This document shows, in pieces, positions 1,585-58,675 of a DNA stretch of 64,000 nt. The translations under genes were made by a program, and so were the position numbers. The notes under the pieces are model-generated. The model worked only from the letters and a program-made list of their open reading frames with translations. It was not told where the DNA came from and searched no databases. Source of the stretch: Centroberyx gerrardi (Eukaryota; Chordata; Actinopteri; Beryciformes; Berycidae); assembly GCF_048128805.1 (NCBI RefSeq), contig NC_136010.1, positions 21,231,480-21,295,479 of the forward strand, written 5' to 3'. How positions within the stretch are numbered: position 1 is the stretch's first letter; the number at the start of each line of letters is the position of its first letter.

Positions 1585-4500
1585 TCATAACTGAGTGTTT
1601 ATTGACTCCTGTCGAGAGAGCACTTCTCTTTTCCCTTCCTCCTGTTCCACCAGATTTCCATTTTCAGTGAGACCTGGATCGTCCGAGATCAAAGGCTGGC
1701 TCGGTTCCTCATCAAGCCCGTCCTCATTTTCCTCCGGAGTCTTTGCACCCCCTTCTTGTTCTGAGGATCGCTCCTCATACGATAGCAAGCATGGCTCAGC
1801 TGTCGGGTTTGCTATTGGGTTTGCTTCCCTCTCTGGCTTGTTTGTTCCATCCTCCATGATGCAGCCCTACAGAGTGAAATACTGTTAGCATTACAGTGCT
1901 GAAAACACTGAATATGACATTTTCAGTCACTGGAAATGAAAAATATCAAGTACATTGCTAGGAATCCAGTGCAACAGTTTCAGTTACAATTGCTATAATT
2001 TGCATTGTTTGCAGACCATTACTGTTTACCCAAGTATATATTATTTTATATATTCTGTAACACAGAATAATATAACTAGGACCAACAGAGCAAGACAAAA
2101 TCAGATTTACCTTAATCTTTGCTTTTGCAGCTCGTACATTACCTAACACAAAAGGAACAAAAGATACAGGATCTTTAGTACATTAAATCAATTATTATTA
2201 TTGTTTATTATTAGTGTCATTGTTTGAGTTTATTGCATACCTCTTAATTTATAGAGGCCTATACAAACTCCAATCAAAATCACGACGACTGCAACGCAGA
2301 TGCCAGCGATCCCTCTTCCTGACAGTCCTGAGCTTTTTTCTGCCAAGACGGGGAAAAGAGAGAAATCCATTCATAAAATATAAATACATCCAGTAATGTC
2401 TATATTTGCCTGTGTATTCCACTTTCACAACCAAAGTCAGATTTTCACATCTAACAACATCTGAAACGATAAAGGACAATATTTGAGTAGAATATGGACA
2501 TTTCTTGTTAGTTTAGAAGAATACAGAACTCAAGCCCCTCTGAGATGTAACATAATACAGCATTATGTAACATAATGCATTTTAGGGGGGGGGGGGGGGG
2601 GGGGGCACCTATGAGACGTGTCTCTGGAGAGAAGGGTTTCAGTGCCTTTCTTAGGGGCCATCCTTACTGTTTAAAACTAAAGGTGATTCTTTAGCCACTA
2701 CAACACAGTGCAGTTTACACACGAACAAAGTGTGAACAATATAGCTGTACTTAGGTGAAAGCTATCAATCCCACTGAAACCACAGAGGCCGACAGAGATT
2801 ACAACTCCAGCAGTCACACGCCTACATAGTTTCATTTCAAACTGGAGATAGCTAAAACTGAGTATTTAAACAAAAAAATCAGCGGATATCCTGTACAGTA
2901 CTTACCACATTCGGTGTCAGATGTGGGTGTCCCACTTTTAACTTGTGATCCAGGCTTACAACTGCAAAGATGTCAGACATTTAAACATGTATGTCAAGCA
3001 ATGTTTACAGTATTAAAGGATAGTTCTTACTTTTTTCATGTGATCAAGATTTTACTAAGGCTAATGTTAAATTAATGGGAGGTATAGGAGCAACCAAAAC
3101 ACGCTGTATGGTCAAATCACCTTGAATCAATCAATCATTTTGTTTTTTATGCTATATTGAGGATTTTGATGTTTGATGATTACCACACACTGCAGTTTCA
3201 CCAGGCTGCTCTTAGTCTAAAGAATCATTCATCTATTGTATAAAAGTAGATTTCTTTTAAGTTAGCCGTGATGTTGGTGGAGGAATTGCTTCTGAAATAT
3301 AAAAGTATGATCCAATGTTTTTTTATTGGGTATCCTATACTCACACTGTCCATTTCATGCAAGCCTGGTTCTCTGAAGTCGCATTAGAAAATGTGCCTCC
3401 AGGGCATTTTTGACACACCGTGTCATGGGTGTGATTGCCTGAAAGGGTGTGACAACCAATATGGATTCAGTGTCACTGCACATAGCAAAAACAAAGCAAT
3501 CTGTGCTTTACATTGAATGTAACTGACAGCGTTTTGTATGTGCATTTGTGTCATACCTTTGGACTGAACCCCGTCTCCCGGTCCGCACTTGGTGTGCAGT
3601 ACACAGGTGATGCATGCTTCACTGGAGCAGTGGTGTCCCGGCTTACACTTGCAGGGGCTCAGACGTTCCTTGCTCTTATCGACCTCAAACTCAAAGTTTT
3701 TATCTGTAAGAAGAGACACAAGTTGTAAGTTGTGCTAATTCAAACAGAAGTCTATCAGTGTGTTAATGGTTTAGTTGAATTTGTCACAATGTCTCACTTG
3801 GGTCGCAGTATGGTTGACGTTTACATATGGTGTTTTTTGTGTAGGCGTCCTGATACTCATTCCCCTCGCATTGCTCGCACCGAGGATCCAGACACCGGCC
3901 CTCCAATGACATCCTTGTCCCTGTAAAAAAATAAATAAAAATATACAGATATTGCTATATAATAAAAAATATCAATTTTCTTACGTGTATATATAGTAGT
4001 GTGGTGGACACAAAAAAATTTGATTAATGACCGAAAGGGTGCTGGTATGAATCCTGGTACATCTGGGTGGGGAAAGTCACACACTTCCTCATGGGGCAGC
4101 TCCCAGTGGTGAGTGTGTGTACAGCATGTGTGTGTGACACCCCCACCACCCCGCCCCCCCCTCCCCTCCCCAACCACTCCCCTCCTGTTCCTAGTAGTTA
4201 CATTACATTCCTAGTTCAATCCATTAAAGGGTTAACATCATGACAAACAATAAGAAAGGTCAACACTGGACTGTACCTGGCCCGCACATCTTGCAGCACT
4301 GCGAGCCGACATCACTTTCATACTGTGTAAGTGGATCGCACGGGGACACTGCACCGGTCACCACCTGCTGAACAATGTCAACCTGCGTTACACACACACA
4401 ACAACATAATAATAATAATAATCTTTATTTGTATAGCGCTTTTCAAAACAAAGTTACAAAGTGCTTTACAAAACATGATAAAAGAGTACAACATACTCAG

Positions 4501-5580
4501 GAGTCCAACATTGTCATAAATAAGATAAAAATAAATAAAACATGAAGCATAGACACCAAATAAAACAAAGTTTATAATAAAAGTAATAAAATAAAAGTGA
4601 TAACAATGGCATTGGGAATTGGCAATGGCAACAAGGGCTTTAAACGTAATCAGTAAAATCTTAAAATCACATCTATACCTAACAGGTAACCAGTGAAGAG
4701 AGGCGAGGATGGGTGTGATATGGTCTTGTCTCTTGGAATTTGTTAAAAGTCTGGCTGCTGCATTTTGTACGAGCTGGAGACGGGAGATGGCCTTTAGGCT
4801 GAGCCCTGAGTACAGGGAATTACAATAATCCAGTCGCGATGAAATGAATGCATGGATGACTTTTTCAAGGTCCGTTTGAGACAGGAAAGTTCTAATTTTT
4901 GCAATGTTTCTAAGTTGGAGAAAGCATGATTGAACTACCTTAGTGATTTGTTTGTCAAAGCAGAGCTCGGAGTCAAAGATTACTCCCACATAGACTGTAG
5001 AGAAGGCTTTGATGGCGAGACTGTTCTGAGATCAGCTCACTTCTCACTTCCCCTGACTGAAACCACCAGACCGAGAGGGGCGCGGCGGAAAGTCCCGAAC
5101 ATTCAACATGTTATGTCGGGCAGTTTCATGGCAGGTGCATTTTCTTACACGTTTTAGTCTATATGCTATTAACAAAACGTGCGTATCGATATTAGCCTAT
5201 AATAAGTTAAAACGGCTTCCACCACTACTTCTACTGCTAATTCACTACTACTCCGTATAAAACGAAACTGAAAGTAGGCTCTGGAAAAGATGTGCGTAGG
5301 CTGTATGCCTTCAAAAATATGGAAAATGTCGACTTCTACATCGGATAAAGCAATAGCCTATTTCAAAGGTGGATAATCAACTAGGCTACTGCATAACACG
5401 AATACATTTAAACGTGCTCCAAAGAATGAAATATTACGGCGTGACTTGAGGTAGTGCTCTGCTTTAGTCCTTTAGTCCTCAACAAGGGCAAACATCTTTA
5501 TAATCCTGTCATCTCCTCCAGTGAAACACAATGATCAGTTTACTCACCGTAAAGACCGTGCAGATTATCAGCAGAAGCAT
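1585..5580 (-). CDS. cd40: CD40 (TNFRSF5) homologue, nine coding exons
   Basis: Type I membrane receptor of the TNF receptor family; in vertebrates it binds CD40 ligand and signals through TRAFs in B cells and antigen-presenting cells. Exons: 5580-5548, 4382-4277, 3920-3798, 3703-3557, 3438-3345, 2961-2906, 2339-2241, 2142-2111, 1866-1585; 972 nt, 323 residues, every phase compatible. Residues 1 to about 22 form the signal peptide. Cysteine-rich repeats span about 26-186. The block CKCKPGHHCSSEACITCVLH closely matches the CD40-specific part of the family, and FSNAT is a glycosylation site at the position where human CD40 has a similar one. The transmembrane segment is about 196-216. The cytoplasmic tail ends in a serine-glutamine motif (SRQE) resembling the C-terminal TRAF site of mammalian CD40. 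Human CD40 is shorter (277 aa). The start is the only ATG in frame with a signal peptide. Confidence 0.9.
2585..2605. repeat. Poly-G run of 21 in cd40 intron 6
   Basis: An uninterrupted run of 21 G on the plus strand, and so poly-C in the cd40 transcript. It lies in the 566-bp intron between exons 6 and 7. Length is likely variable and sequencing error is possible here. Confidence 0.9.
4138..4175 (-). other. G-quadruplex-capable tract in cd40 intron 2
   Basis: The plus strand is almost all C. The sense strand of cd40 therefore has several runs of four to seven G separated by one or two bases, which satisfies the usual G-quadruplex pattern. It sits in the 356-bp intron 2, about 100 bases downstream of its 5' splice site. 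Any effect on splicing is inference. Confidence 0.6.
4395..5035 (-). mobile_element. L2-like LINE fragment (C-terminal reverse transcriptase plus 3' tail) in cd40 intron 1
   Basis: On the minus strand, 4989-4620 reads as the C-terminal part of a non-LTR reverse transcriptase: VGVIFDSELCF, then LRNIAK, SRLDYCNSLYSGL, LQLVQNAAARLL and LHWLPV. These blocks typify fish L2/CR1-clade LINEs. The frame then decays into a 3' tail with the common fish motif TTTGTATAGCGCTTTTC (plus strand, about 4428-4445) and ends in an (ATT)n run at about 4407-4424. It is 5'-truncated near 5035 and lies in the same direction as cd40. The 5' limit is approximate. Confidence 0.85.
5087..5096 (-). promoter_or_regulatory. 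NF-kappaB site in cd40 intron 1
   Basis: The minus strand reads GGGACTTTCC, the classic immunoglobulin-kappa type kappaB site. It lies about 450 bp inside the cd40 gene from exon 1, next to the 5' end of the LINE fragment. The match is exact; function is inferred. Confidence 0.5.
5264..5273 (+). promoter_or_regulatory. ISRE/IRF core in cd40 intron 1
   Basis: GAAACTGAAA matches the interferon-stimulated response core GAAANNGAAA exactly, in the longer context CGAAACTGAAAGT. It lies about 275 bp inside the cd40 gene from exon 1. Mammalian CD40 is interferon-gamma inducible, which makes the site plausible; use in this fish is inference. Confidence 0.5.
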
Positions 5581-5713
5581 CTCGGTGACTTGTGTTCTGT
5601 AGCGCAGAATATCTAAAGTGTCTTGTGTCAGCTGCAGTCAGAGCGCGAGACGAGCTACATTCTTATTCAGAAAGAGGAACGCGCCTCCCGCACGGGGGCG
5701 TGGACGCGCCAGG

Positions 5714-5723
5714 GGGAATTTCC
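5714..5723. promoter_or_regulatory. NF-kappaB site upstream of cd40
   Basis: GGGAATTTCC matches GGGRNNYYCC exactly. It lies about 135 bp upstream of the cd40 start codon, a proximal promoter position. Mammalian CD40 promoters are known to be NF-kappaB responsive. Confidence 0.55.
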
Positions 5724-6059
5724 TGGTCCTTTTACCGTTTCCTGTAAATCCAGCGCAACTGAATCCTCAAATTCTGATGTAGTAGTCTCCAAAATGTCCC
5801 GAAATTAAAGTAAAGTAAATAAAACTGTGTATGCGTCAGTTTATGAAAATGAAGTACAGTAATGGTATATTACATCTTTAGAAGGTAGGCTATATAAAAA
5901 AAACAAACTAACAAAGCTACAGGTCGAAACACTAAACCACACAAAATCCAACAGTAATCCAACAGAGGGAAAACAATGCCATAAAGTATTATGGGAATAT
6001 GATTTTTCGTTAGGGTAATTTCACTAGTATTGACAAAACCTATTGTTACCTGTTGTGAA

Positions 6060-6069
6060 GGGATTCCCC
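6060..6069. promoter_or_regulatory. NF-kappaB site (palindromic type)
   Basis: GGGATTCCCC fits the kappaB consensus and resembles the symmetrical form favoured by p50/p52 dimers. It lies about 410 bp upstream of the formin start codon and 15 bp from a second kappaB match. Confidence 0.5.
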
Positions 6070-6084
6070 GTGTATTTTACATCA

Positions 6085-6094
6085 GGGACTTTCC
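6085..6094 (+). promoter_or_regulatory. NF-kappaB site (kappa-enhancer type)
   Basis: GGGACTTTCC, an exact classical kappaB site, about 385 bp upstream of the formin start codon and paired with the match at 6060-6069. Confidence 0.5.
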
Positions 6095-6478
6095 CACAGC
6101 ACAACATGGTCACCCTCCAATATTCAGTTAAACTGCCCCTCCGTGGGAAATAAGAATAAGCTCTACAGCGCCCTTCCCTGGACAAAATGGGAAGAGCAGA
6201 CCTGCATGTGGAAACATGTTTGGTGACAAATGTCCAGGGTTGAACTTCTCACAGTGGGCGTTGACTGAAAGCAACTCACCTAGTTTACCTAGAAGAAGTG
6301 AAATCTGATCTCTGAAAGGGTGGTAGAAGGAGCAACGCAAACCACTTCAGTTTTCCTGGAACTTTTTCCAGTGAGGGAAGTAGTACTCTGTGTCAGTCTT
6401 GTAAGACAAAAACTCTTCATATTTTAGCTACAATCAGAGGAGCACTTGCATGGATTTTTGCATACAATCTGAAAAGTT

Positions 6479-9400
6479 ATGATGCCAAGTTTAGGACCAA
6501 AGAAAAAAGACAACTTATCCAGGATGGATAGAAACAGTGAGGATTTACCACAGGTAAGATTTCAGCTTGTGTACTCAGATAAGAAAACAGCATAACGACA
6601 TCACTCAGACAGTACTTGTTCTTTAATAGCAAGTGTCATGCTGCAATTTACAATGTATTTGAAAAATCAGTGCTTCTGTAGATGAAGAAGAGCCATGAAA
6701 CAATATCAGCTTATATAGCCTTGCTTCAGAGCCACACTCCACTTACTTTCAGTGACCTCAGGCTGTGTGCAACAAGATGAGACTAACCTGTGGTTCAGTC
6801 TACTGCTGGGGAATCTATCACACATGTTTTACTTCCTCAATTCAGTCTGGCTTCCCTGCTACTCTTTGTTTCTCACAGAGGAACTGATATTTACTCAGAA
6901 ATATGATAGACAATGACTGATTTGTATAGCGTAGGCAGGATGTTCCCGTAACACCATTGGTTCAGCAGATGCAGGTGTTGATTGCACTATGCAGCCTAGT
7001 GGTTCCTCCTCCGGTCCCAATGAGTCCAGACCTGATACATGCTGCCCTCTCTTTCTGTTTTGGAATCTGTCGGTTTAATCTTGTTTTTCGTATTGGGAAA
7101 ACATGCATATCTCAAAGAACATGACAAAGCAGCACTTCAATGACATTTTGTTTCAATAAAATGTGAATGCTGACCAGTGGGAGGCCCTGAGAAGGTCTGA
7201 AGAAGGTCCAACAATCTAAAAAAGGTTTTAAGTCAGTTTAAGTCATGATGTTTATTTGCCAAAAAGCAAGGCAACATTAAAGTGGCGGGTTTTGGTCTGG
7301 AGTTTGACGTGACATTCTCTGCCATACACAGAGGAAAAAAGAGTGAACAGCATGTAGTCGGCAACATGAGCCCAAACTGTTCAGTTGGATAAAATAGGGA
7401 TAACCTCACAAGCCATGAGTGGATATAACAAAAAAACCCCTACATGCACATAATTTATCTTTTCCTTCTGGGTTGTTGCTCCTGTTCAGCTGAGCAACGA
7501 GATGCAGCTGAGCATCATGAACAAGGTGAAGAGCGGTGAGCTGTCCATCGAGGATGCTCTGAACCTGGCCAGAAAGGACCGAGAGCAGCTGCTCAAACAT
7601 CAGAGCCAGGCTGAAGAGGTAACTGCAACCTGCCTGTAAAGATACTGTCTGGGGCTTTGTTTGGCCATCTAAATATTTGTGGATCTTCACATTATTCTCT
7701 TGAGGAGTTTGGCTTGAGTAGATGGAACATAACGAGTTTTGGTATGTTCTTAACACTTTACAACACCTCAGATTTACAGATTTTACAGCCTTAAAATTGC
7801 ATGTAAAGCTTCACATACTATCAGTACTTGTATCAAAAGTTAGAGTGAAAAATGTCTAATCCAAGATTAGATCATTAGATCATTATGTAGACAAAGCTAA
7901 CAATGGGGTGTGTCAGTAAAGGCCACCATGCTGCAGTTCTGGATTAAGCCTTTAAGGTGCACAAAAATATTTAGATTGGAATTAGGTCATGTGAGGTCAT
8001 CCAACACACATTTAGAAGATCAATGTAAAAGTCAGCTGTCATATTTTTTTGAAGTGGCACACAGATCTTGAAAATTTGTCTTTGTTGTGTAATTAGTTTA
8101 AAGACATTTGTAGTTTGCACCCTCCCCTAAGCCTAATAATAACAGAGTAACACTAAAGGACTAATCACAAATCGCTAACCAAGCTATTGACCTTGGGTAT
8201 GCACACAGTGAGCAGTGGAATTTTTACCCATCTAGTGCAAAAACATTAGTCAAACTTGTGGCTTTATCTATACACAATAACTAAAAATGTAATTATTCAA
8301 AATTCCTCCATTTGTGATTGACCTACTTGACTACTCTGAAGCTGGTGAAAACCTCATACGGCTCTGTCCTCTAAAGTACAATCTTCTGTCCCGTGTGCAG
8401 CCTCTTCACCTCCTTACACTCTGTGGTGTTACTATGCTGCCCATCCTGCCAGATCAGTTTTAAATATTGTATCTGTCTCATGTAGCTGGTTTGATGTGCT
8501 CAAAGATATTTTTAGGAAGGAATGTGGCAGGTAACTTCTGTTCCACGCCCTAGCAGGAAACAATCACATGAAAATACTGTCCTATATATGGATAACACAC
8601 CCTTGTTAATGTTACTAGATGTTGTTCAGTAGAATGCGTAATCCCATTGGGTATTCATGTCTGACAGTGAGGTTTCTGTGGGCTGTTGTTACAGGAAGAG
8701 AAAACCTCACAGTACAACTTCAGTGTTCACAAGCATGGGCGCTACAGGTGGCAGAAGCGGGTTCTTCAGGTGAGCTTTTTGCATAAAAGAAAATAACGTT
8801 TTACTGTGCTGTGTGTGGGTTGAATTTACCCGACCGCTCGAGTGCATTGTCTCAAGATGCGAATCCTGTACATCCAGATTGACTTCAAGACCAAAATGCT
8901 GTGCAGCATCGAGAAAGGCATCGTCAAGCGGCAGCTCCCCTTCTCACGTGTCAAGAGTTGTGATGATGGGGTCGGGTCCAGGTTCTCCATATCCTTTAAA
9001 GGGCATCACGACTACGAGTTGGAGGCTACCTCACTGGAGGACAAACACAAGGTGAGTTTATACTCGACTGGTGATGAACCTGAAAAGTAAAAAGGTCTCT
9101 TAAAACTGTAAAAGTAAATCAACAATACATGGAAAACTTACTTGTGTTTAGCCTGAGTGGAACTCTGTTGGGACTTTGGTTATAGGTGTTGATGCCTTGA
9201 ATGAGACTTTTCTTTTACCTTGCTGGTCATTTCATGTTTCTGTGTAGATCATGCAGCTTGTGAATCAGATCATCTATAGGAACATATATAGTGACCCTGC
9301 AGAGGGCAATGCAGAAACACACCAGCCGTCTCCAGGATCGGAGAGCCTTCGGGAGGGCGTCTTGCTGCTGCACAGAGGGGGCTTGGCATCATTCAAATGG

Positions 9401-12400
9401 GTGAAGTATGGATGTGTCCTTATTACACTAGTGCTACTACTGAATCACAGCTAATGCACAACAAATTTACAGCATAGTTACTGATCAGGAATGATTCCTG
9501 ACCAGTACTCCCAGTTACAAAATATATCTTAAGCTATCTTTGTATTAGTCAGGTCCTGTGACTTGGGCATACATTCGGCCAAAGTATTATTCAAGCTCCA
9601 TTTTGTTCCAGATATGAGGTCCAGCTCCACTCAGGCCAGGTAACTCTGGCCCCCCTCGGGCGGCGAGGGCCCTCCGACGGTGAGGTGCCACCCACAGTGA
9701 ACATGTCCATCGTCATACACCTGTCGGACGGTGACACCAGCGTAGAGAAGCCTCACAGCCGTGACACTTTCACTCTGGTCACCCACAAAAACGAGTACCA
9801 GTGAGTAAAGATATTACAGGAGGCTGTGGGAATATCACAACAGCAAGTGGTTGATGAATTTTGTCGAGAACATCTGCTGTATTTCTTTAAGCATAATTTA
9901 CAGCCTAGTGTCAACAGTCTTTAAATCAAACTCTTTTGCCATCCATATAGTTTTATTGTAACAGATATGCACAGTACAGCCTTGTTTGAGTGATAATGTC
10001 ATAAATACAGGCCTAGAGTGTTGGTTCACTGATTGTCAAAGTTGGGTCACACACAGCTAATAAGGGAAGTTGAGTTAAGTTATGTTGATGTGTTGCAGCT
10101 TCCGCGTGCCTGTCACAGATCAAACAAAGGGCTCCGAGGCTATCCAGAAGGAGCGGGATGCTTGGGTCAAGGCCATCGACAAACTGTGCTTGGACTGGAA
10201 GAGGAAGTCCCAAGTTGAACACATATATGCGGAACCAAATTCTCTACGAATCGCCAAAGACACCGAGGACACGCTGTCAGCAGGAGCACAAGCTGATACA
10301 GATCTCAAGTCTAGTGGTGGATTTCGTTTACCAGGTGCAAATATGAATCAGAGTTATCCTCCCTCTGATTATGCAAATGCAGATCCCATCTCTGTTGGTG
10401 GTGATCGTTTATCAGCTGGCGACGGGAGTCAGAGTCATCCCTCAGCCGATTATGCAAAGCCCGTGGCTAAACCGCGCAGCTCTGAGAAGGCTGCTGCTCA
10501 CGTTCTCGGGCCCGACACTGCGCTGACATCCCCTGGCCCTTCACCGACTGCTCCCGGTCCTGCCTTGTCCTCACCCGCCTCCCCTGCACCCTCACCTCCC
10601 CGCTCTGCCCGCACACCCTCCTATCTCGTCTCCTCGCCCTCCTCCCCTGCCCCCTCACCCATCTATGATGCCCCCTCACCTTCCTCCAGAGTCCCACACT
10701 CTCCTGCTCCTGAGTCTGTCTCCTCAGCCCAGATGGTTCCTTCTCCCCCCATGATCCCAATCCCTCCGCCTTTACCTTTCAAATTCAACATAGATCCACC
10801 AAAACCACGCACCAAGGCCTTCCACTGGGACGTAGTTGGCTCAGATAAGGTATTGGTTAATGTTTCATTTATCAGAAGACACTACATTCACCACATTTTC
10901 AGAGTTAAATATCAAGTTTACAAATGGTCTCATTAGGATATATTTATTCATATTTATTTTGTTTGTATATTGGCAAGTAAATACAAATACAGAAATGTCA
11001 CTTTCAGTGTAGTTTCACTTCATTATTCTTGTATCGCATCATTGTCGGGAACTATTCCTTGTTGTGTCTTGTCATTTGTAGTTTCCCCTGTTTAGTTCTC
11101 GTTAATGTGAACATTGACTTCCACACAAAATAGATTTGTCCCAATACCGATTTCATTTGTTTCTTGGCAGATTGCGAAATCATTTTGGATGCGAGGAAGT
11201 GCCAGGAGGATTGAAATTGACACGTCACGCTTGTATGAGCAATTTGCTGTTCAAGATTTGGGAACATTTGGCCCGGTCGAGTCGAGTAATACCCAGCATA
11301 TTATGCTCAACCAGAAGATTGCACACAACTTCAGTGAGTAACAGTGGATGAGTGTTGAGGTGAATCATACATAAGGCCCTCGATGTCGTCTACTGCCACA
11401 GAGTGCTTTCGGCATTTTATGATGGAGGCTTTCTTACCAAAATCACAACATAATAACAGTCATTTCCGTGTTATAATGAAAAAGCATGCTTCCGGATTAG
11501 TCAAATAATTGAGCTTACTCTTTCAATGAATGAGAATTTTGGTGTGAAATGAGTTCAGACTGTTCAGCCACCAGAGGGAAGCACCGCATAGAAAGAGTGA
11601 TAAAGATTTCTGCAGAGGCAGTGTTAAAATCAGACTATTTATTTTCTGAAGTTAGACTTTAATTGTCCATTTAAGAGGAAGCTGACTCAATGACTGTCTA
11701 AGGGAGTGCCTATAAATAATGCCATTTTGTTCCTTCTTTAGTGATAGCCACGGCTGTAATGATGCCACACTGGTTGTAAAACAGAATGGATTTTCCTTGT
11801 CTGCGTCTGCAGGGGGCAGTGTGTCACTAATCAGTCCGTCCCCATATCTGCCCATGCAATCTGCAGAGCTATTGTGAAGTGGAACATACTCTGCTTCTCA
11901 TCTAATGGCTTTTCACTTTTGATTAACAGAATGTATGTGTCTTGCATATTTCAAAGCCCAAGCCGAGAGAGAACATTTCAGAAACTTCCTCTCGTAGGTC
12001 TTCCAAGTGGCACAGAAACTGTGAAGCGATACAGATATCTCTGATGTGGCACTGGGCTGCTAAATGGAATCAGTACAAGTGTGCAGACTGGCAACATAAT
12101 TAGAGTGCACATATTCATAAAATATGGATAGGGATCTGTGCGTCAACGGCAGCGATTTCCTGTCTGATACAGGATACCCGAGCATTCCAAGTTTACTCCT
12201 CTCTGACCTGGAAACTTTGGTTCTGCCAGGAATATGAGCTCAGTGATGACAGCCTGCAGGCAACCCCCGGCCATGCATCTTTCCCGCCGCAAGCTTTAGA
12301 GGAAGTTAGAGGCTTGAGGAACAAGGGAAGCTCTCTCTCTCTCTCTCGTGCTCTCTCTCCCGCTTTGTTCCTATTAACACCGATGAAACACGTGGCTTTA

Positions 12401-18593: not shown

Positions 18594-21500
18594 GCACAGA
18601 AGAGAAAACTTGTTTGCATGTTTTAGTGGGTGCATACACACACACGCGCCACACACACAGACCCACACACACACACACACACACACATCTTATTGCTGTT
18701 TCTTCTCCTCCCTGCTGCAGATGTGCAACATCCCCTACCTGAGCACACAACTTGACCTGCTGCTGACTCTGAGAGAGCTGCCGATCAGCATGGACGACCT
18801 GCAGCCCGTGAGTCTCTTGTTCGCCGGTGGAGGCAAATCAAAAGTTGTATCGGAAGTTGAGCGGTGTGAAAGTTTGTCCCATTCCCACAACCGGAAAAGG
18901 TTAAAACCACAATCTCCACGAGACAAGATGAAACATGAAAATGCAAATTTATTCTGTAATGCAAATGCTAATGTTGAGATACATCATGGCTTTAGACATA
19001 AATGAAAAGGACATCGGGGAGCAGAATGACATTAATACATGAAAGCTTTTTCCCTCAGTTTGACTTTTATGTTTGAAGTGAGGGGCGAAGTCGTTTCTAT
19101 TCTATTTGCTGGCTGGTTAAAAGTCTTCAAAGACAGAGTGGCATGAGAGGCACTTTAAGACACCTAAGACATATCTTAATCAAATAAACTTCCTTTTCTC
19201 TGTGGATGCCATAAAATATACAGCACTGTCAGCTCTAACAGAAACCCACACACTGTTTATGTGTTCTCTAACCACTTAATTTCTCCCCGTACCACTGTAA
19301 TGTTACGCTTTCACTACAGCTTAAAAATATGCCCGCAAAGTACTTGACTCTCCTCGGCCAAGACAAGCACTCTAAAACTGATATAGCTAAAAAATGAATA
19401 GATAAGAAATGTAAAAATAAAAATGATATTTTACATATTTTCTTAACCCTTATACACATAGCGAATTATTAAGGCTTGTGCTGTGTGTGTGTCCAGACAG
19501 TCCAGGTCCATCATTAGTCAGACTAATCGTTAACACTCTTCTAGAGCGTTAATGTTTATTGCCAATGGGGACTGCAGGGTCTGAAGATATTGCAGGCAGA
19601 CAGGAATACCTCCCAGCTCCACACTTTGGTTTGTTTGTTCTTTTTTTTTAATGTGATTCTCTCAAGCTTCTGTTTCTTTCAGCATCAGTGCTTGCTTTCC
19701 TAATCTCTTGTCTGCTGACTGTCTGAGAATGAATCGAAAGTATGGATAAGAATGATTGCACTGTAATCCATTGACTACCACAGTCATTTTTCTTTGTCTG
19801 AAACTTAGAGACGCACATATTGTATGCTGGCTAGATGACACTGCCGGAAAGATTAGCAATTTCATTACGTTTAAATTTACTCTTGGCTTTGTCTTTTGGC
19901 TGTTGTTTCCCCTCCCTGCTGCATTGTAGCTGAGATTTGTTACAAATGGATCAAACTGTGGAGTTTGTGTGGAGGTACTCGTGTGACAAAAGGTATGCTG
20001 CCCTGTAATCTACAATCCACAGCTGATGTAGCTGTCTTACAATACAATGTGTTCAAACACGGAGGCGTTGGGTCTTCTCTGTTGCCGAATACTCTAAATC
20101 CTAGGATTCTCTGACATGGCAGACTTCATAAGCCTTGAACATTAAGGAGGATTTACTTGCCATCTGACAGACAGGGCTTGAGGATAGAAAATAGAGAAGT
20201 CACCACCTGGGGAATGTTTCCCTCACCTGTAATGCGCTTTGTTGGCGCCCAATTTTGCTGCTGGAATGACAGGTTTCATTCTGCATGGTAGACCTGGCTC
20301 CTTCTTTAAACTGTTTATTGTGCTCTGTGTGCAGCCATTTACACATATAAATATGAGAGTGAAAGAAACAAAACAGAAGACAAGTAAGTCTGGCCATGGA
20401 GGCATCTTTTTACTTTATGGTAACAATAAATTTAGTATTTGTGTTTCTGTAAGGATCCATCTGTTAGGATCCATACAAACTAGGTCTCCATGATGGTAAG
20501 GAAGCTCCTGTGCAGAGCTGGTTTATATAATGTAGCTGGATTTCTTCTGTTTGTTCTGTGTGGTTGTAGCTGTCCCACTGGTAGATGCTAGGAGGTTATT
20601 CTTAAAACAGCAGCATATGGCTGGAGTGTTGCATCTGGCTGGTATAGACCTTTGGAAAGGCTAGTTGTTTGTCAGGGACTATGGCTCCCATAGCATCAAC
20701 TACTTTCTCCTCCAACCCACCTTTGTAGAAAAACTAAAAACCCCACCTCTGTCAGACAGTTTGTGCCACTGCAGTAACAGCTGAAGTTTTGCAGTAGCAT
20801 TTCTATCCATATTAAACAGGATTTGCTCATCAATATTGGCTAAACTGTGAAATGTTGAGATATTCTGGAGGCATATTTGTTCTTGACACAATTGCATACC
20901 AAACCGTAATCTTGCAAAACAACAAGGGCCCTGATTAGTGAAATTATTCATTTTATGAGGTCAAACGAGGTGGTGCAAGATAGCTGTTTACCTTTTATAA
21001 TGTAAAATACTAAAGCCAAGAGCTATTTTGGTCTGCAATCTCTCGGCAGAAAGAACTCAAAAACAAGCTTCAACCGTTATTCCTGTCAAATCTCACAAAG
21101 TTGTTATGTGTGGACGGATGAAAGGGAGAGAAAAAAATGACTTTGCTCTGTGGCCCTGTGTTTGTCTTTCAGCTGATTAACCAGAAGATCAGAATGTGCA
21201 TGCAGTTGTTCAACTCCGGGTCATTTGTTTCCGTGCTGGAGTACCTCCTCGCCGTTGGCAATTACCTCAACGAGAACGCCAGAAAGGAAAAGGCCAAGGG
21301 ATTCCGCCTCTCCTCCTTAACTAAAGTAGGGCTCCACCACAGTTGCCTGACCTTTGATGAAGTGTGCAGCACTAGGCTAATAAGAATACTCATTGATATA
21401 CACAACAGGGCTTCTCTGCGTCTCCTTTCAATTTTCCCCCCTGTCCGTCCTGTTGCGGTCAGCCAGGTCCGCCCAGGTCGTCGCCTCAGCCAGTCAGACA

Positions 21501-35459: not shown

Positions 35460-38079
<2,620 letters not shown>

Positions 38080-44400: not shown

Positions 44401-47400
44401 GATATAGTTTTATCCTAACTATAACCCGCTGACCTACCTACGTTGGTGAAGTGCAACTTCACAACTGGGTTCTTCAGTTTGTCCCTGTGGAAAAACTCTA
44501 ATAGGTGCGATGCTTTTTTCAGTGTGGAACCCTGTTTTTTCAACATTTTGTGCCCACGGTTGTCACTTGAATCCTTTACACAAAAGGAATAGGAAATGAT
44601 AAAGGTATGGCAAGAATCTCTTGTGGCAGCTGTTTTTTTAATACATGGAACAATGACAATAATGGACTATAATAACATGTTATTAACTCCATATTCTGAT
44701 GAATTGATCAAAGCACATTTTCAAGGCTTTCTGGTGAATAGCTTGTCCTCTTACTCATTTTTGAAGGGGGATCATCCAGATAGAAGAAGTGGGAAAAGGT
44801 TTATTTGAAAATTCTCAATGAGACCTTTGTGATTTCTCAAAATACAAGAAAACAAACGCTGCAGGCATATCATATAACTCAGAGCCTGTTGGAAACCCAT
44901 TTTAATGTAAAACAATGCATACCATAGTTTCTTAATTACGCTGTACATGACAGGAAATGAAATTTGTTAGAGCTTCAACTGCTGTAAGTACAGTAGAGAG
45001 CAGTAAAATATCTCGCAGTTATCATTCTGGATGATTATATCACTTACTGTAATCTAATCTTCTTTGTCTATTACCTCTGGAAGAACTGGGCTTCAAGTAC
45101 ATTTTCATCGGAGAGCGGTTCGGTGTAATTTTCAAGTCTATTTGTGCTCTGATTACAGTACTTTTAATAGAAGGATTTCCAACTGTATGAACTGCTAAAG
45201 GTCTTGTGTGCCATGGAGTTGGCCATTTTCTTTTGTCCTTTGTCTCTGACAGCTCCTACCTTAAAAAATGTGGGCCTTTCTATCAAAACCTGTTTGGAAT
45301 TTAATGTTGTTTCATTTTCCAGACAACTCTCATTAGCTCTTCAATGCTTCCTCTTTAATGCTTGTACATTATTCATTTCCTAATTCAGACCATTGGTCAT
45401 TAAATAATAACATGTTTTGCTTCACAGTAATCCAGAAAATAAGATATGCATGAAAGCATGTGTCCAACTTTAGATTTGATTGAGTTCCAAACAATTTCAT
45501 GAGCATTAAACAAGACTGCTGTGAAATTCCTACTTTCACACAGCACACATAGGCAGAATATGTGAGTACTGTATGCAAATTAGCTTGGAACAGAATTGCT
45601 GATTTGTTGGGCTTAAGGATTGCAAAACCACGTTTGCATGCAGTGCAGTTCTTCAGAGCACCTCTGTGGCTGCGACATGCCTCATTCTGATTTCTGAATA
45701 GTAAATGAAAAGCTCATTTGGTGAGACTCGGAGGCTGGGGTTAGGGTTGGGGGGCTGCTCAGGGTAACTCAAAGTCACAGTATATGATGAGATTTCAGTC
45801 GGTTCATTACTCACATTGCTACCTTTGTATTTCAGGCAGCTGTCAATATCCAGGGGGACTGGCTACTGGGTGGAGGAAGCAAGATATTTTTGGGAAAGCA
45901 TTTCTTAGGAACAGAACAGCTATTAGAATAGAAGAGCTATATGTCCCAAACTAATACGTCCATCAATTCCAGGCAGAGCTTACAGATCTACATCTATTTG
46001 TGTCTGTATAAGTAATGTCTGTATAATAATGGTATAATTTGAATAGTCAATGAGCACAGCATATGCAGAACATTTTAGCATACAGTGCATTATTCCCATG
46101 CTTTGCTGTTCACTGTCCCTTTGCACAGAACACTGCACTTTTAGCTCTGCTCAGTCTTGTCATGTGTTTCCAACAGTTGCACTACTCCATATCTAAGATA
46201 TGAGACATATTTGGGCAGTCATAGGCTTTCCATCATATTATTTTACATCTGAGAAATAAGATGATGATATACTTCACTTGTCAAAAGTTTTTTTTAGATA
46301 ATATTTCTAAATTTTTGTAGCACAATTTAGATTTACAGGTAATTTCACAATAAGCCAGCAAAGAAATCAGTGGAGTGGAGGATCTGTGGAAAAGCAGCCC
46401 CAGTCATCTTCCACATGACTTCATCCAAAAAACATCTTTTGATGATATTAACCGCACATGACATCCAAAGCTCTCAGGATACTGTAGTGTTCCTTTGAAT
46501 GCATTTGCGAGCGAGATGAGTTGTATTATCTAAGGAAAAGAGCTCTATGCTAATGGTAATGTGGACGGTATGATGAAGAGGAATTGCCATTGTCTCATCA
46601 TCTGTCTCCTGTGAAACCAAGGAGCGAGGGGGGGAAGGGACTACTTACTGGCATGGCAGCTCAAGAATGACTCGAATCAAAAGTGCATTAGTGGCTTTGA
46701 TGGACAATAAGCATGTAAGTTGTGATGGGGTATGAAAATATAAAGTATCTGCCAACCAGAAAAGACGGACCGATATACAGACAGTCTGAAGATGGATGTA
46801 GATGCCAATAGCAATGGTATCAACCCATGACCTTTAAGACTTTCCTGCAGCTAAACAGAGTACAGCTGAGTGGATCACACGTCTGTGGTCTAATATTGTA
46901 CATAACTGTTCCAACCTACTGTATATTCTTTCATGGTGTCCTCATATCGCCCCATATATCACTGATAATTTAATACATACCATTACCGACCAGCAAAAAT
47001 GAGCCATATTTACACCTTTGAAAATTGAATCTGTATTTCTCTCTTTTACAGCCTTATATGTCTCTGATTTAAGACGGTGTCTCATTCCTAGCGGCAACGC
47101 GCTGACTTGCGTCTCTGCAGCAGGTGCTTGACATGATGAGCTAAGAACATCCAGACGCATTAAGTACAGTGACAACGCTTGTTGAACTCGTTCAACTTCA
47201 GCTGATTGCAGTAATCAAATAGAAATCAGAAGTAACTGTATAATTTCAAACACATCACATGATACATTATAGTGGTGGGTTTTAGATGGAACATACTCAG
47301 AGAAAATAACTATAATACAAGTGTCACTGCATGGCACATAATTAGTGTTCTTCTGCAGTATTATCATGGAACCGTTTACTTATGAACTTTTGTCAGTTGC

Positions 47401-47508
47401 ACATGTTTTACTTTAATATTGTGGTACTATATAATATGTTTTTATGGATTAGATAGTTAAACTAGAATACATTGTTTTGGTAGATCTGGATAGCAAATGT
47501 TTTGACTT

Positions 47509-47906
47509 AAAGGTGTTATGAGTAGCATTTTGTGTTTCTCAAAAAAAAGAGATTTCCCATAAACCCTGTTACCTCCTGTCACAAAGAAAATGTCGCCACT
47601 TGTCCCTCCTCCCCTTCCCTGGAGCCAATAACAGCCTGATAACAGCCAATATCCATTCAGAGGAGGTAAGCTAACGTGAAGCTGAAACTATGCGGTTAGA
47701 CAGTTGAATTGGAATAAAATTGTGTAGCGTACTTGAAAAATAAAACAGTTTCTGCTTTGTGCCATGAAGGTAAAACACAAGGTAAAGCTCAGTGGGCAGG
47801 TAGAGGCTACCAACCATCTCAGCAATGCTCTTGTTTGTTCACGGTAATATCACAAAATAGTGTGGTAATGGTTTATTGATGGTAAAATGCTACATGCTGC
47901 ACCTTT
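47509..47906. mobile_element. Short element with terminal inverted repeats (MITE)
   Basis: The left end is AAAGGTGTTATGAGTAGCAT and the reverse complement of the right end is AAAGGTGCAGCATGTAGCAT, so the ends match over about 22 bp with few differences. The 398-bp interior is non-coding and contains GCCAATAACAGCC-type units. No clear target-site duplication, so the superfamily is open. Confidence 0.65.
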
Positions 47907-49799
47907 CAAATGACTGATTATTTGAACTCATAAAAAGCATATCACCTTTACTCCCACGACACTGATGTTTGTATGGCAATCAACAGACATCAAAGTCATG
48001 CACGCCAATTCACTGACTCTGTTATTTAGTCTCAGACCAAATAAATATCTTTGCTTTGATAAAGAGGGATCACTCGAAACGGAGAGTGCTCTTCAAGTAT
48101 ATTTTTGGTGCATTTAACTACATGTTTTACTTTACTACTGTGGTATTATACAGAAACAAAGTTCAGATGGGTCAGCGTGTATTTCTGAATGATGCGAATA
48201 CCAATTTTAGAGTATTGAACCAACAGTACAACGAAACATCTGAGACTTTCACTTCAGTGTGCAAAGGAAGGTCTAATCTGAAGGAAATGCTTTTAAGTAC
48301 GCTTTTGATGTGAATAATGTTTGAATGATGGAAACAGATTACTCACTGCAAGTATCTACACTTGTGTTTGAGTGCTCAAAGTGCTTCTTAATCACTCAGA
48401 AAATTCAATGAAAAGAAGTTCAGAACCAGTCATATGTTGAATTACATTAACATTTCTCAAATCAAGCAATTAATAAATCATTTTTCCCCAGGTGGTAAAA
48501 AAGCAGAATTCAATCAAGCAAGAGAACTCGAGTACTGTACGTTGAAATGAATGTCATTTGATCTATAGAAGTGTATAACACAAGGATACAGGTTTGGTTT
48601 TCTAAATTTTTGATTTGACTCATATACTTTCCCCTCATATATTGCTTTGAATTGAATTTTAAATGGAAATACCCTTTTTTTTTTGCACACGGTTTTTGTT
48701 GTTTTGTTTGAGCTTATTTGTCAGCCAGAGGATATCTCAGTGCCTCAAAGAGCAAAGTCCTGCTCTACAAAATGCTCGATCCAAAAGGACACTGAACCAT
48801 TAAAGCACTTCCACTCCCTTTTTTGTGCCAGCAACCTTCAACCTCTCTGCTCACACCAGTAATAGCTTAAATCTTCTCAAAAAGAGCACAGCTCTTACTC
48901 AGCTCTTTTTGTGCTTTGCTCCAGTATCGATCTGCACTACTACTGTTGCTGCTGTATCTTTCATAACGAACGTCCTCATAGAGAGAAACTTTTCCAGGTT
49001 GACCCAACATGGAAAAACAAGGCATACTGTAGAATTTATTTTTCAACGATTAGATATTCACAGCTTTAAACCTTTCCAATTATCAGAATCTGCATTTCTG
49101 TCTCACCATATCTCACAATATCTGTGGGATATGTACCATATGTATCATAATGTGACATTAATTAAGCTTTCAATATGTATGCAAGTGAATGGAGATTCAT
49201 AAAAAAGCATGAACGGTTCCCTAGAGCACCTGATCTTAGTGGTTGACTGCTCAATTCATTTAGAGGTGTGCATGCTAAATCTTTAACCAAAGGGAAACAT
49301 CACGTAACTTTTTGTGAGGATGTGAATAATTATTTAGAAACACTCTTCGTCGCTACTGCAAACCATTATCGAGATGTTCACCAGGCGTGTCCCAACAATG
49401 AATTCCCTGAATTAGGCGGGTTTTCTCATCATGCCCACAGCGTTGCCACATTAATATTTCCCTCCATTCATGAGAGCATCACAATCTAAAACACCCTTGG
49501 GACGACTATCCAAAGCGTTGCCCGGATGGCTCTCATAATAGACTATTATGCATCTGTAATTTGGGAAATAAGTTTGCTGTGTCTTTCCCTCACCTGTTTA
49601 GGGTTAGAGCAACCTTGCTCTTGGCATGACATGCGCTGAATTAACAATGTGAGTAAACAAATTGTGGGGCTAAACAAGGAATACACTTGATGGCACCTCC
49701 TCTCCCTACAGTACAAATCTACTGCACAGCACAGAAACCATGTAATGCACTGTGTGTATACAGTATACTCTATCTAGCAGGGTGATCGACCTTCAACCC

Positions 49800-50000
49800 T
49801 CCCAAATACAATTACATTGTATGTGTCTGGCAGAATAGACCCAAGAACACGGAAGGCTCCACCAGGCTGGAAGTGTCCTTGTACAAGACTGAGTCCTAAT
49901 ACCTGACCCTGAGCTCTTACTGCCTTGTGGAGTGGACAAACAGAAAGAGAACTTCCCCACAGGGACCAATAAAGCATCACATTGTTATTATTATTATAAT
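49800..50000. repeat. Possible retroposon tail with (ATT)n
   Basis: Ends in CCCCACAGGGACCAATAAAG followed by CATCACATTG and an ATT run (49984-49997), the style of fish retroposon 3' tails. The body upstream is not recognised. Confidence 0.3.
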
Positions 50001-52393
50001 CTGCATTCCAAGTTGGATGCAACTCACACAATACAAAACATAACGTCACTTACACATGGATTGTTTGTAAAGGCTAGTGTCTTGGGTTTCAGTGGTAGAG
50101 CTGCAGGATGAAGTTGTGACTGAACAGAAAACATGAGAGGCTTCTTTTATGTCTATTATGTGCGGGACTATCAATCGGTCTGTGCAACCAATATTCGCAC
50201 TAATCATGATAATCATGGTCTTGAAGGAGCATCTTGTGTTACACAACAACAGGACAATATTAGGAAAATGGGTGAAGAATCAACAGCAGAAACTGCTGGC
50301 CTGCTGTACGGAGCAGCATACAGTCCTTTAGGCCTGTTATGACAGTGAAAACTGTTATTTACTGTACTGTTGAGAGTTCATTTTCTTGTGGCTTTCCGCT
50401 GGGATATTTATGAAGCCAGATAAGGGTGTGTGTTGGTTTCACACTACCTCCCCGAATGATTTTTTGCATATTTCCATTTTCATTTCATAACTGAAACACT
50501 GATCAAGATCATTGAAAACAACTGAAATATATTCAAGACGCTTTGCCTCACTACTTTTATCCTGCTGAATGAGACATTTTGATGCTGCGCCTCCTAAATT
50601 TCTGTTTTGCCCCGAGACAGCTATTTATGAGGCTATTTAGCAGCACTACTACAGTGATGAAGAGTACTTTTGAGATTATATCTGATATATATTTGTATTG
50701 TGTTGCTCTCAGTAAATAATTATAGGCTTTTATGCTTAACTCTTTTATTGATTATATTGTTTTCATTTTAGCAAAATAGTCCAATAATACTTCTAATCCT
50801 CACTAAATTCCCAAGCACCGCAAGCTATAAGATATATTAGATTATATTACATGGCTCAACACTGTTATTCCAGTTTATGAACTGTAAATAACATCACTCT
50901 GACATGCAAACGTGACTCTAGAGCAAATTTAGCATGTAACCATGGTCCTGACACCGTAGTTTGTGTGTTTGTCCCTGAGGAGGATATGTGATGGATAATG
51001 CTTCAGCCCCTCAGGCCGTCATGTTTTGGTCACATCAGCTTTTCCATAGTCATGAATCTGTTGATGGGAGGAATAACAGCACAGGAACCCTGCTGTGTGG
51101 GGGGGTTATAAAAAGCTGTTAGAGAGGGACATTTTATGGTGACTTGGCAGGAATCACAATCACTGTTCAGCAACAATTACGTCTCCTGAGGAGGAGAATG
51201 TCCACATTCAGAGCGGCTTGGCCGGGACTCGACTGCCAAACCTCGGAGACGGTACGCACCGGCAGATCCAAAGCAGACTGCTCCGTGCAGCACACAGATT
51301 AGCAAATATCCATCTGTCTGTGTCCTCTGTAGCCGGTGTCCAAGCCGCTGAGCCATGTTGTCTTTGGGTAATAATGATGTATTTTTCACCTCAAAGCACC
51401 GGCGGGTGCAACTTCAAGGTGTGCGGCCTGGTCAGAGTCTGTCACTGCCGGTACGGCGGTTCAGCTGTACAATGCGGGACGCAGACAGAGGCAGTGCCAG
51501 TAAATGAAGGATGAAGGTTTGTCTAGTAGTATGTGTGCGAGTGTGACTGTGTGTCTGTGTGTGGGTGGATGGATGGGTGGGCTTTCACCCTGTTGGAGAG
51601 GATGAGTTATTGCTGTGATTTGAAGACACAATTTCTACCATCCAGGATTGCTTCACTTGCAGAGTCTACCAGTGTTACACTTCTGAAAATCATCATGCTT
51701 GTGTTGCCCTATCACATTAGTGTATCACTTATTGTGTAATTATACAGTAATTACCACAATAACACCACTTTTTTCTGATTTGTATTCAACAATTATAGTG
51801 TAGGAAGAAAAGGAAACCCATTCATAGAGTGAAATAAAACTGACTTAGAGATGCAAACATATTGTAGTTATTTTAGTTAGTACAATGTTATAACACAAGC
51901 CAAATAAGGCATTAATGTACAATGAGACACAAAATTATGAATGTGATGCGTACATACTAACGCTTTCAACAATACGTATTAAGACCTTGGGTTGATTGTG
52001 TCATTTAATTGCCTTACAAGTGTTTTTATTTCCTTATACCCTCTAAGAGGGGGTGGTATCTCCAAAGGGCTGGAGAGAGAACAATCTGTCTCCTCGTAAG
52101 CATATTCAATTCTCCCAAGATCCGTCACTGTCTATTGTTATTATTAGTTTTGGCATAAAAAACTAATTTAGAAATCAGAGTCAGATAATTAAAAATCCGA
52201 CTAAATCCATTCCCACAGGACTCAGAGCATCACATGGCTGAGGCGGCTGCCAAGCCAGCCAGGGAGCTGAGAGACTGCAGGCAGGATGCATTTCATTTTC
52301 TGTGGAGCTAACCTTGTAAATGCCTGGTTGATCTCTGTCTATCACTGGGAGACTCGCAGGTCACACTATCCCAATACATCTAAACCACATTCC

Positions 52394-57323: not shown

Positions 57324-58094
57324 TTAAATGAACTTCTCCATTCGCATCACATTTATTCTGGCCAGCTTGGAGAACCAGCGGTTGGCGTGCGTGTTACTGT
57401 GGGTTGCGGTTTGAACGAAGCCTAATTTTTGGTACAGGGAAGCGGCTGCTGTCTGCGGTGAGCTGGTGTCCAGAGCGAGGCAGGAGTAGCCGCGCTCCTT
57501 GCAGAAATCCAAGGCCTTCTGGGTCAGCTGAGAACCCAGGCCTTTGCGGCGGCACGCAAACGACACGACCATGTGGGGCAACTCGCCGTAGCTTCCGTCT
57601 CCGGCGTCTCGGGCCATCTCCGGAGCCGCTCCCATCACTCCTCCGTTCAATTCGTCGTACCTCTCGCCCCCGGTGACCTCGCCTCCCCTCTTCCCCGTCA
57701 CCGCCACCATCCCAACCACCTTGGACTGGCCGTTGACCTCTTCCTCTGCCACCCAGAAAGCGTTATCTGGGTTGTCCAGGTAGTTGGCTTGAATGTCGGC
57801 CATGTCTGTGCTCAGCCTCCTCAACATGTAGCGTTCGTAGATGTCGTGGCAGCAGAAATAAATGAGGCCGGCCCACGCGCCGCCGAAGAGTAAAGCTTGG
57901 AAGTAGGAGCTCCCTCCCAACACGTAGCCGGCCATGGAGATGCTCAGGGCGACGCCAACGTGGTCCGGATGGCTCATGGCCTTGAAGAAGGCCGGGTACA
58001 CGTGTTCAAGAATCCCGTTGCGAAAGAGTGCGGTGACCGCGTGTTCGTCCGAGGGTGTATACTTCCTGATGGAGTACTGAACTGTATGGGAGAA

Positions 58095-58156
<62 letters not shown>

Positions 58157-58675
58157 CGGTGAGGCTAATCTGCTTGTTTTTGCAAAAAGAAAATCCTGCT
58201 GGATTTCACAATGGGCTCACGTAACACGGTGAAAAAAACAATGAATTAATGCACTTTTTTACAAAAATGTTACCCTTTTCATTTCTAATTTAACACTATT
58301 ACACATAAATATAAATCTTGGCATTTGTCCCTGACAACCATAGGGGAAAATAACAATTAGAATTATCACGACATTGTTTTTCTTTAAAATTTCAAGAACA
58401 AGAGACATTTTGAGATACAGCACAATTAATAGGCCCAAAAAAATGCTAATGGTGAGAATCAAAAGAGGGTGAGAATAATGAGGCAACCAACAAAAGGTCT
58501 TTAGTTTCCATGGAGTGCATCATGTGTCATCTATGGATGTTAAAACTGCCATTCATTTACACTCTAGCTGTCTTGTTAGTGGAGCCTAATCAACTGGAAT
58601 AATACAACTACTCTAAAAAGATATAAAACATTAACGTCATATGAACATTAACTTACAGTTATTTTTCTGTGCCAT
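57324..58675 (-). CDS. NAT8/camello-like N-acetyltransferase, two coding exons
   Basis: Membrane-bound GNAT-family acetyltransferase that uses acetyl-CoA; mammalian NAT8 acts on cysteine S-conjugates or lysines in the ER, NAT8L on aspartate. Exons: 58675-58657 (19 coding bases) and 58081-57324; 777 nt, 258 residues. The start MAQKNNFQYSIRKYTPSDEH supplies the IRKY opening typical of NAT8 proteins. A long hydrophobic segment at about 48-84 is the membrane hairpin, followed by HDIYERY. The acetyl-CoA motif RRKGLG lies at about 184-189, with LALDTS and LYQKLGF further on, as in GNAT folds. A Gly/Glu-rich loop of some 35 residues (about 136-172) separates the two conserved parts. Without the small first exon the frame has no suitable ATG. 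The substrate cannot be decided, and the paralogue (nat8, nat8l or a fish-specific copy) is open. Confidence 0.85.
58095..58154. repeat. (GA)n microsatellite, NAT8-like intron 1
   Basis: About 30 AG units with one GGG interruption. On the coding strand this is a (CT)n tract ending about 14 bp before the exon 2 acceptor, so it forms the polypyrimidine tract. Confidence 0.95.

Follow-up and report, generated by a model that had tools for sequence, protein, structure and literature searches.

What does the short stretch of DNA between cd40 and its head-to-head formin neighbour do, i.e., is it an NF-kappaB-responsive promoter of cd40, and does the formin share that control? The locus lies in a 64-kb window (the whole stretch of DNA analysed here) on contig C14 of a 779-Mb assembly of 278 contigs, which is the genome searched for all genome-wide counts given below and which, judged by its gene content, appears to be that of a fish. 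A preliminary description had placed the two start codons 898 bp apart, and this is what we find: cd40 starts with an ATG at 5580 on the minus strand, the formin with an ATG at 6479 on the plus strand, and the interval between them (5581..6478) is 898 bp long with a GC content of 42%. A consensus scan recovered all four of the kappaB decamers first described, at the same positions and on the same strands, each matching the strict consensus GGGRNWYYCC (the laxer form is GGGRNNYYCC): GGGACTTTCC at 5087..5096 on the minus strand, in cd40 intron 1; GGGAATTTCC at 5714..5723 on the plus strand, 134 bp upstream of the cd40 ATG; GGGATTCCCC at 6060..6069, which fits the consensus on both strands; and a second GGGACTTTCC at 6085..6094 on the plus strand, 15 bp past the 6060 site. 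The composition of the interval is uneven: it is CpG-richer at 5601-5700, its CpG-richest stretch, and AT-rich at 5801-6000. A repeat origin of the kappaB sites was considered and is unsupported, i.e., neither the interval nor the stretch in intron 1 matches anything in the genome but itself, in a self-match search that skips very common words. Rfam (gathering threshold) and tRNA scans of the 64-kb window gave no match.

The identity of the left gene as cd40, proposed from the start, holds. Our splice model, which is provisional, comprises nine coding exons on the minus strand, i.e., exon 1 (5548..5580, with the ATG at 5580 and the donor gtgagt), exons 2-5 (4277-4382, 3798-3920, 3557-3703, and 3345-3438), and exons 6-9 (2906-2961, 2241-2339, 2111-2142, and 1585-1866), and it encodes a product of 323 amino acids. 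When this product was searched against PDB sequences, the top five of 35 matches were all TNFRSF5/CD40 (99.9-100.7 bits, best E 1.2e-27), compared with 57.6 bits for ELR1 and 56.6 bits for TNFRSF11A, the next molecules. TNFR_c6 was the sole Pfam family found in the product at E 0.001, which argues that it has no death domain. A hydrophobic segment can be discerned by eye in the translated model, and the tail carries the motifs SxEE, SxQE, and PxExxD, which we presume to be TRAF-type (read by eye, with definitions of low specificity). At the sensitivity used, no second cd40 copy was found in the genome; apart from six matches inside the window, the search gave two weak ones, with identities of 26% and 29%. 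Please note that an ORF at 4378-5031 on the minus strand lies within cd40 intron 1, runs to exon 2, and comes to within about 56 bp of the kappaB site at 5087; we read it as the C-terminal portion of a LINE reverse transcriptase of the L2/Maui type, and a Pfam search of it gave no match.

The right gene had been called a PH-formin, of which the second half stands and the first is unproven. Its coding exon 1 (6479..6553, plus strand) opens with a double in-frame ATG at 6479/6482, and exons 2-5 (7490-7618, 8695-8769, 8878-9051, and 9248-9405) together with exons 6-8 (9612-9800, 10099-10849, and 11171-11333), all on the plus strand, encode an N-terminal region and a proline-rich FH1-like segment (exons 2-8, 7490..11333). 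The boundaries 8878 and 10849 were assigned by hand from the sequence, where the script gave 8857 and 10735. That the gene is a formin follows from an FH2-domain exon match at 21191..21328 on the plus strand (C14:21252670-21252807; Pfam FH2, E 1.8e-12), the only one inside the window among 65 FH2 matches in the genome. For the N-terminal region, Pfam gave no PH family at E 5 and one weak SHOCT-like match (E 0.057), and PDB sequences gave no PH domain and one match, to a splicing factor at E 0.25. The region does contain a tryptophan-bearing stretch, RDAWVKAIDKL, that we regard as PH-like. Downstream of the formin, the ORF 35460-35876 is likely cerebellin-4, since it scores 130.9 bits against cerebellin-4 and 106.5 against single-chain cerebellin-1; the best row is a triple cerebellin-1 fusion, at 132.1 bits over three stretches. 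This cerebellin exon confirms that the formin sits beside a CBLN4-like gene, and, judged by cbln4 linkage and the proline-rich segment, the gene is most likely a formin of the PHCF kind. All seven matches to the formin fell in the window, i.e., no second copy was found in the genome at the sensitivity used, and when viral contigs were scanned with a formin stretch, two stretches fitted the pattern, neither of which encodes a relative.

Taken together, we consider that the interval is a compact NF-kappaB-responsive cd40 promoter paired head to head with that of a PHCF-type formin, and we give this reading a probability of about 0.6. Three elements on the cd40 side all lie within 143 bp of the ATG at 5580: the 5714 kappaB site, GGGCGTGG at 5696..5703 on the plus strand (one of two in the window), which we take to be a GC box of Sp1/KLF type, and AGAGGAA at 5673..5679 on the plus strand, with the kappaB site on one side and the cd40 ATG on the other, presumably a PU.1/ETS-type core, and a weak one given 25 such matches in the window. 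The group adjoins the CpG-richest stretch of the interval. Activating signals would bring Rel dimers to the predicted 5714 kappaB site, and Rel dimers there, beside the GC box and the PU.1-type core, would raise cd40 transcription; the pair at 6060/6085, like the site at 5087 in intron 1, would serve as a further (helper) element. CD40 signalling activates NF-kappaB, so that kappaB sites at cd40 would close a positive loop on the gene.

NF-kappaB control of mammalian CD40, which had been taken as established, agrees with the text available for one source, where NF-kappaB, Sp1, and STAT-1 are named for dendritic cells (PMC7793297, citing Tone 2002). The order of sites found here, i.e., the 5714 kappaB site, the GC box at 5696, the PU.1 core at 5673, and the ATG, agrees with the NF-kappaB plus Sp1 control named there for dendritic cells. 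Here too, a kappaB site and a GC box lie just upstream of the start codon of the gene that corresponds to mammalian CD40 by best match, a likeness of layout between promoters that were not aligned. In trout B cells, as far as the available text of the source goes, one cd40 gene is upregulated with TNP-LPS and TNP-KLH and the other cd40 homolog with TNP-KLH only (PMC6927014). Our literature searches found no publication on a CD40 promoter under NF-kappaB in teleosts, and none on point for a CD40 promoter with NF-kappaB and PU.1. The hexamer TGTGGT occurs in cd40 sense at 5936-5941 (minus strand), and it is common by chance, with 47 occurrences in the window; the same hexamer is reported for mouse CD40, at -489, as a Runx site, in the part of the text available (PMC7793297).

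Whether the formin shares the control is a separate matter, and the readings below do not exclude the one above: our preferred reading concerns cd40, and the next two concern the formin. In the available text of the published maps, PHCF is flanked by MC3R and CBLN4 in coelacanth, birds, and marsupials; placental mammals lack PHCF, with human keeping decayed fragments (PMC5047451). In tetrapods, MC3R adjoins CBLN4, and in five ray-finned fish, MC3R was not found in that fragment, again according to the portion of the source available (PMC3151243). At our locus, the cerebellin side of the formin is retained and cd40 lies on the opposite side. The likeness to PHCF (PMC5047451, in the text available) thus extends to the FH2 exon, the proline-rich segment, and the cerebellin-4-like linkage, and the differences are that the other neighbour is cd40 here and MC3R there, and that PH domains, two of which mark the N-terminus of chordate PHCFs and which were predicted there by fold recognition (Pruyne 2016), were not detected by sequence here. 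Because MC3R takes the place of cd40 in the PHCF maps and was not found there in five ray-finned fish, the cd40-formin pairing was probably derived in ray-finned fish by rearrangement, as far as published maps and one genome can tell. By eye, no GPCR was seen among 47 flank ORFs of at least 150 amino acids or 42 window ORFs of at least 100 amino acids, a survey that an intron-split gene could escape; Pfam on nine of the 47 flank ORFs gave BTB, homeobox KN, C2H2, endonuclease, and reverse-transcriptase matches and no 7TM. Human CD40, we assume, has no formin neighbour and lies elsewhere on chromosome 20.

This history suits the possibility that the two genes are neighbours without coupling, i.e., that a rearrangement set cd40 by the formin, that the kappaB sites would be for cd40 alone, and that the formin promoter would be independent. 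The AT-rich stretch at 5801-6000 (GC 26% and 35%), which separates the two promoter halves by about 200 bp, points the same way. This reading by itself, however, leaves unexplained the two kappaB sites that lie nearer the formin, and we put it at somewhat less than an even chance.

Comparison with medaka, for which we rely on the available part of one source (PMC11676430), helps to place the layout. In that fish, 3499 of 26,870 genes (13%), in 1737 pairs, have divergent starts less than 1 kb apart, and 36.8-52.2% of divergent pairs are co-expressed, depending on the tissue. Divergent pairs being common and only partly co-expressed, the layout alone implies no coupling. The present pair resembles them in its head-to-head arrangement, in its length below 1 kb, and in GC content (42% here, compared with a medaka mean of 42.06%), although the medaka distances run from one transcription start to the other, with half of the pairs less than 400 bp apart, whereas our distance is between start codons. 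Functions overrepresented among the medaka pairs are those of organelles, RNA processing, and ribosomes rather than of immune receptors (PMC11676430).

Rather unlikely, in our judgment, is a shared bidirectional control in which activated leukocytes would use the 6060/6085 pair to raise both genes and so couple receptor display to actin remodelling, as the preliminary description had suggested. The distance from the pair to the ATG is indeed 384-419 bp for the formin and 480-514 bp for cd40, and the formin side holds two further elements, AGAAGTGAAA at 6294-6303, the window's sole match to RGAAGTGAAA, which we take to be EICE-like, and TTCCTGGAA at 6353-6361, presumably GAS-type. However, the strict EICE pattern has no match in the region, and the GAS-type pattern is common, with 34 strand-wise matches in the window. 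Six ATGs in the formin leader (6101-6478) also oppose an unspliced start beside the pair, so that an unspliced leader more likely begins some 140-360 bp beyond it. The medaka pairs can be read either way: about half are co-expressed in gonad and brain, but just 36.8-40.2% in liver (PMC11676430, in the text available). A literature search for cd40 with a formin and a bidirectional promoter gave none on topic among the matches listed, as judged from the title or the start of the abstract, and cd40 is not mentioned in the available text of PMC5047451, PMC11676430, or PMC3151243.

If coupling is allowed for, a longer scenario may be drawn, which we consider unlikely: mc3r would have been lost or moved in ray-finned fish, the ancient formin, brought head to head with cd40 by rearrangement, would have gained its NF-kappaB control and become an activation-induced actin nucleator of leukocytes, and placental mammals, in which the two were never so paired, would have let the formin decay. 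A kappaB-rich cd40 promoter is a known kind of element; the pairing with a formin is new and is the interesting part. In our literature searches and in the available text of PMC5047451, we found no description of the function of a vertebrate PHCF formin, and the name PHCF1 did not occur among the matches listed. Were the formin tied to cd40 induction, there would be an easily tested hypothesis for a PHCF formin, a gene lost in placental mammals, and, if the coupling is true, an example of a gene gaining immune control via a changed neighbour. Even with the two genes uncoupled, the locus would still be a clear non-mammalian example of a cd40 promoter rich in kappaB sites.

The preliminary description had also called four strict decamers within 1 kb unusual, which holds locally but neither for the window total nor for the genome taken together. 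The 64-kb window has seven strand-wise strict matches at six distinct places, four of which lie inside 1008 bp. The total is ordinary, as seven strict matches are reached in 10 of 100 shuffled windows and, with the laxer form, the eight observed in 27 of 100. The clustering is not: simulated 64-kb windows held at least four sites in 1008 bp at rates of 5, 4, and 5 per 1000 (Markov orders 1, 3, and 5, respectively), and at least three sites fell in an interval of equal length and composition in one of 5000 simulations. Across 264 kb of contiguous chromosome (the window plus 100 kb on each side), there are 19 strict matches, or 18 with one overlapping pair collapsed, and the cd40-formin cluster is the sole cluster of at least three sites. 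When the letters of the pattern were permuted (n = 1000) over the same 264 kb, 46 patterns reached three sites in 1008 bp and six reached at least four, these six having 24-48 matches each compared with 18 for kappaB. By our arithmetic, however, chance clusters of four expected in 779 Mb number from about 1 (uniform, at the local density) to 60 (at the simulated rate). The clustering exceeds what chance gives locally, but does not exceed it over the genome taken together. The cluster is rare, the statistics alone are no proof of function, and it is the location that carries most weight. That the cluster arose by chance and has no NF-kappaB function, for which these genome-wide expectations and the six permuted patterns doing as well speak, is improbable, since it sits where a gene under NF-kappaB control in mammals (PMC7793297, in the text available) has its 5' end, and the prior is thus high.

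Counts of the individual decamers are mixed. The 779-Mb genome has 872 exact copies of GGGACTTTCC, or roughly one every 0.9 Mb, which is fewer than the 1093 of the reversed control, and two copies lie about 1 kb apart at the cd40-formin locus; exact GGGAATTTCC (1355 genome-wide) and GGGATTCCCC (779) are commoner than their controls (1210 and 479, respectively). An GGGACTTTCC with a strict site at most 30 bp away, in the orientation of the 6060/6085 pair, is found at four places in the genome (control, one), among which only the cd40-formin locus has further strict sites inside 1.5 kb. Around the other three, about 3 kb of sequence holds no third strict site, and no gene was recognised by eye in their ORFs, indicating that the spaced pair is no reliable promoter mark.

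Several other genes surround the locus. About 450 bp to the left of the window, on the 3' side of cd40, lies a homeobox ORF (L011:8650-9546; Pfam Homeobox_KN), which we take to be Iroquois-like. In the right flank (numbered from C14:21295480), two near-alike sets of acidic ORFs, at 18636-20853 and 46882-51091, lie about 28 kb apart and are apparently a duplication; Pfam on two pieces of this region gave no match, and we regard the ORFs as BCAS1-like. Within the window, a GNAT acetyltransferase exon lies at 57324-58205 on the minus strand (Pfam Acetyltransf_1, E 3.2e-16), presumably nat8-like.
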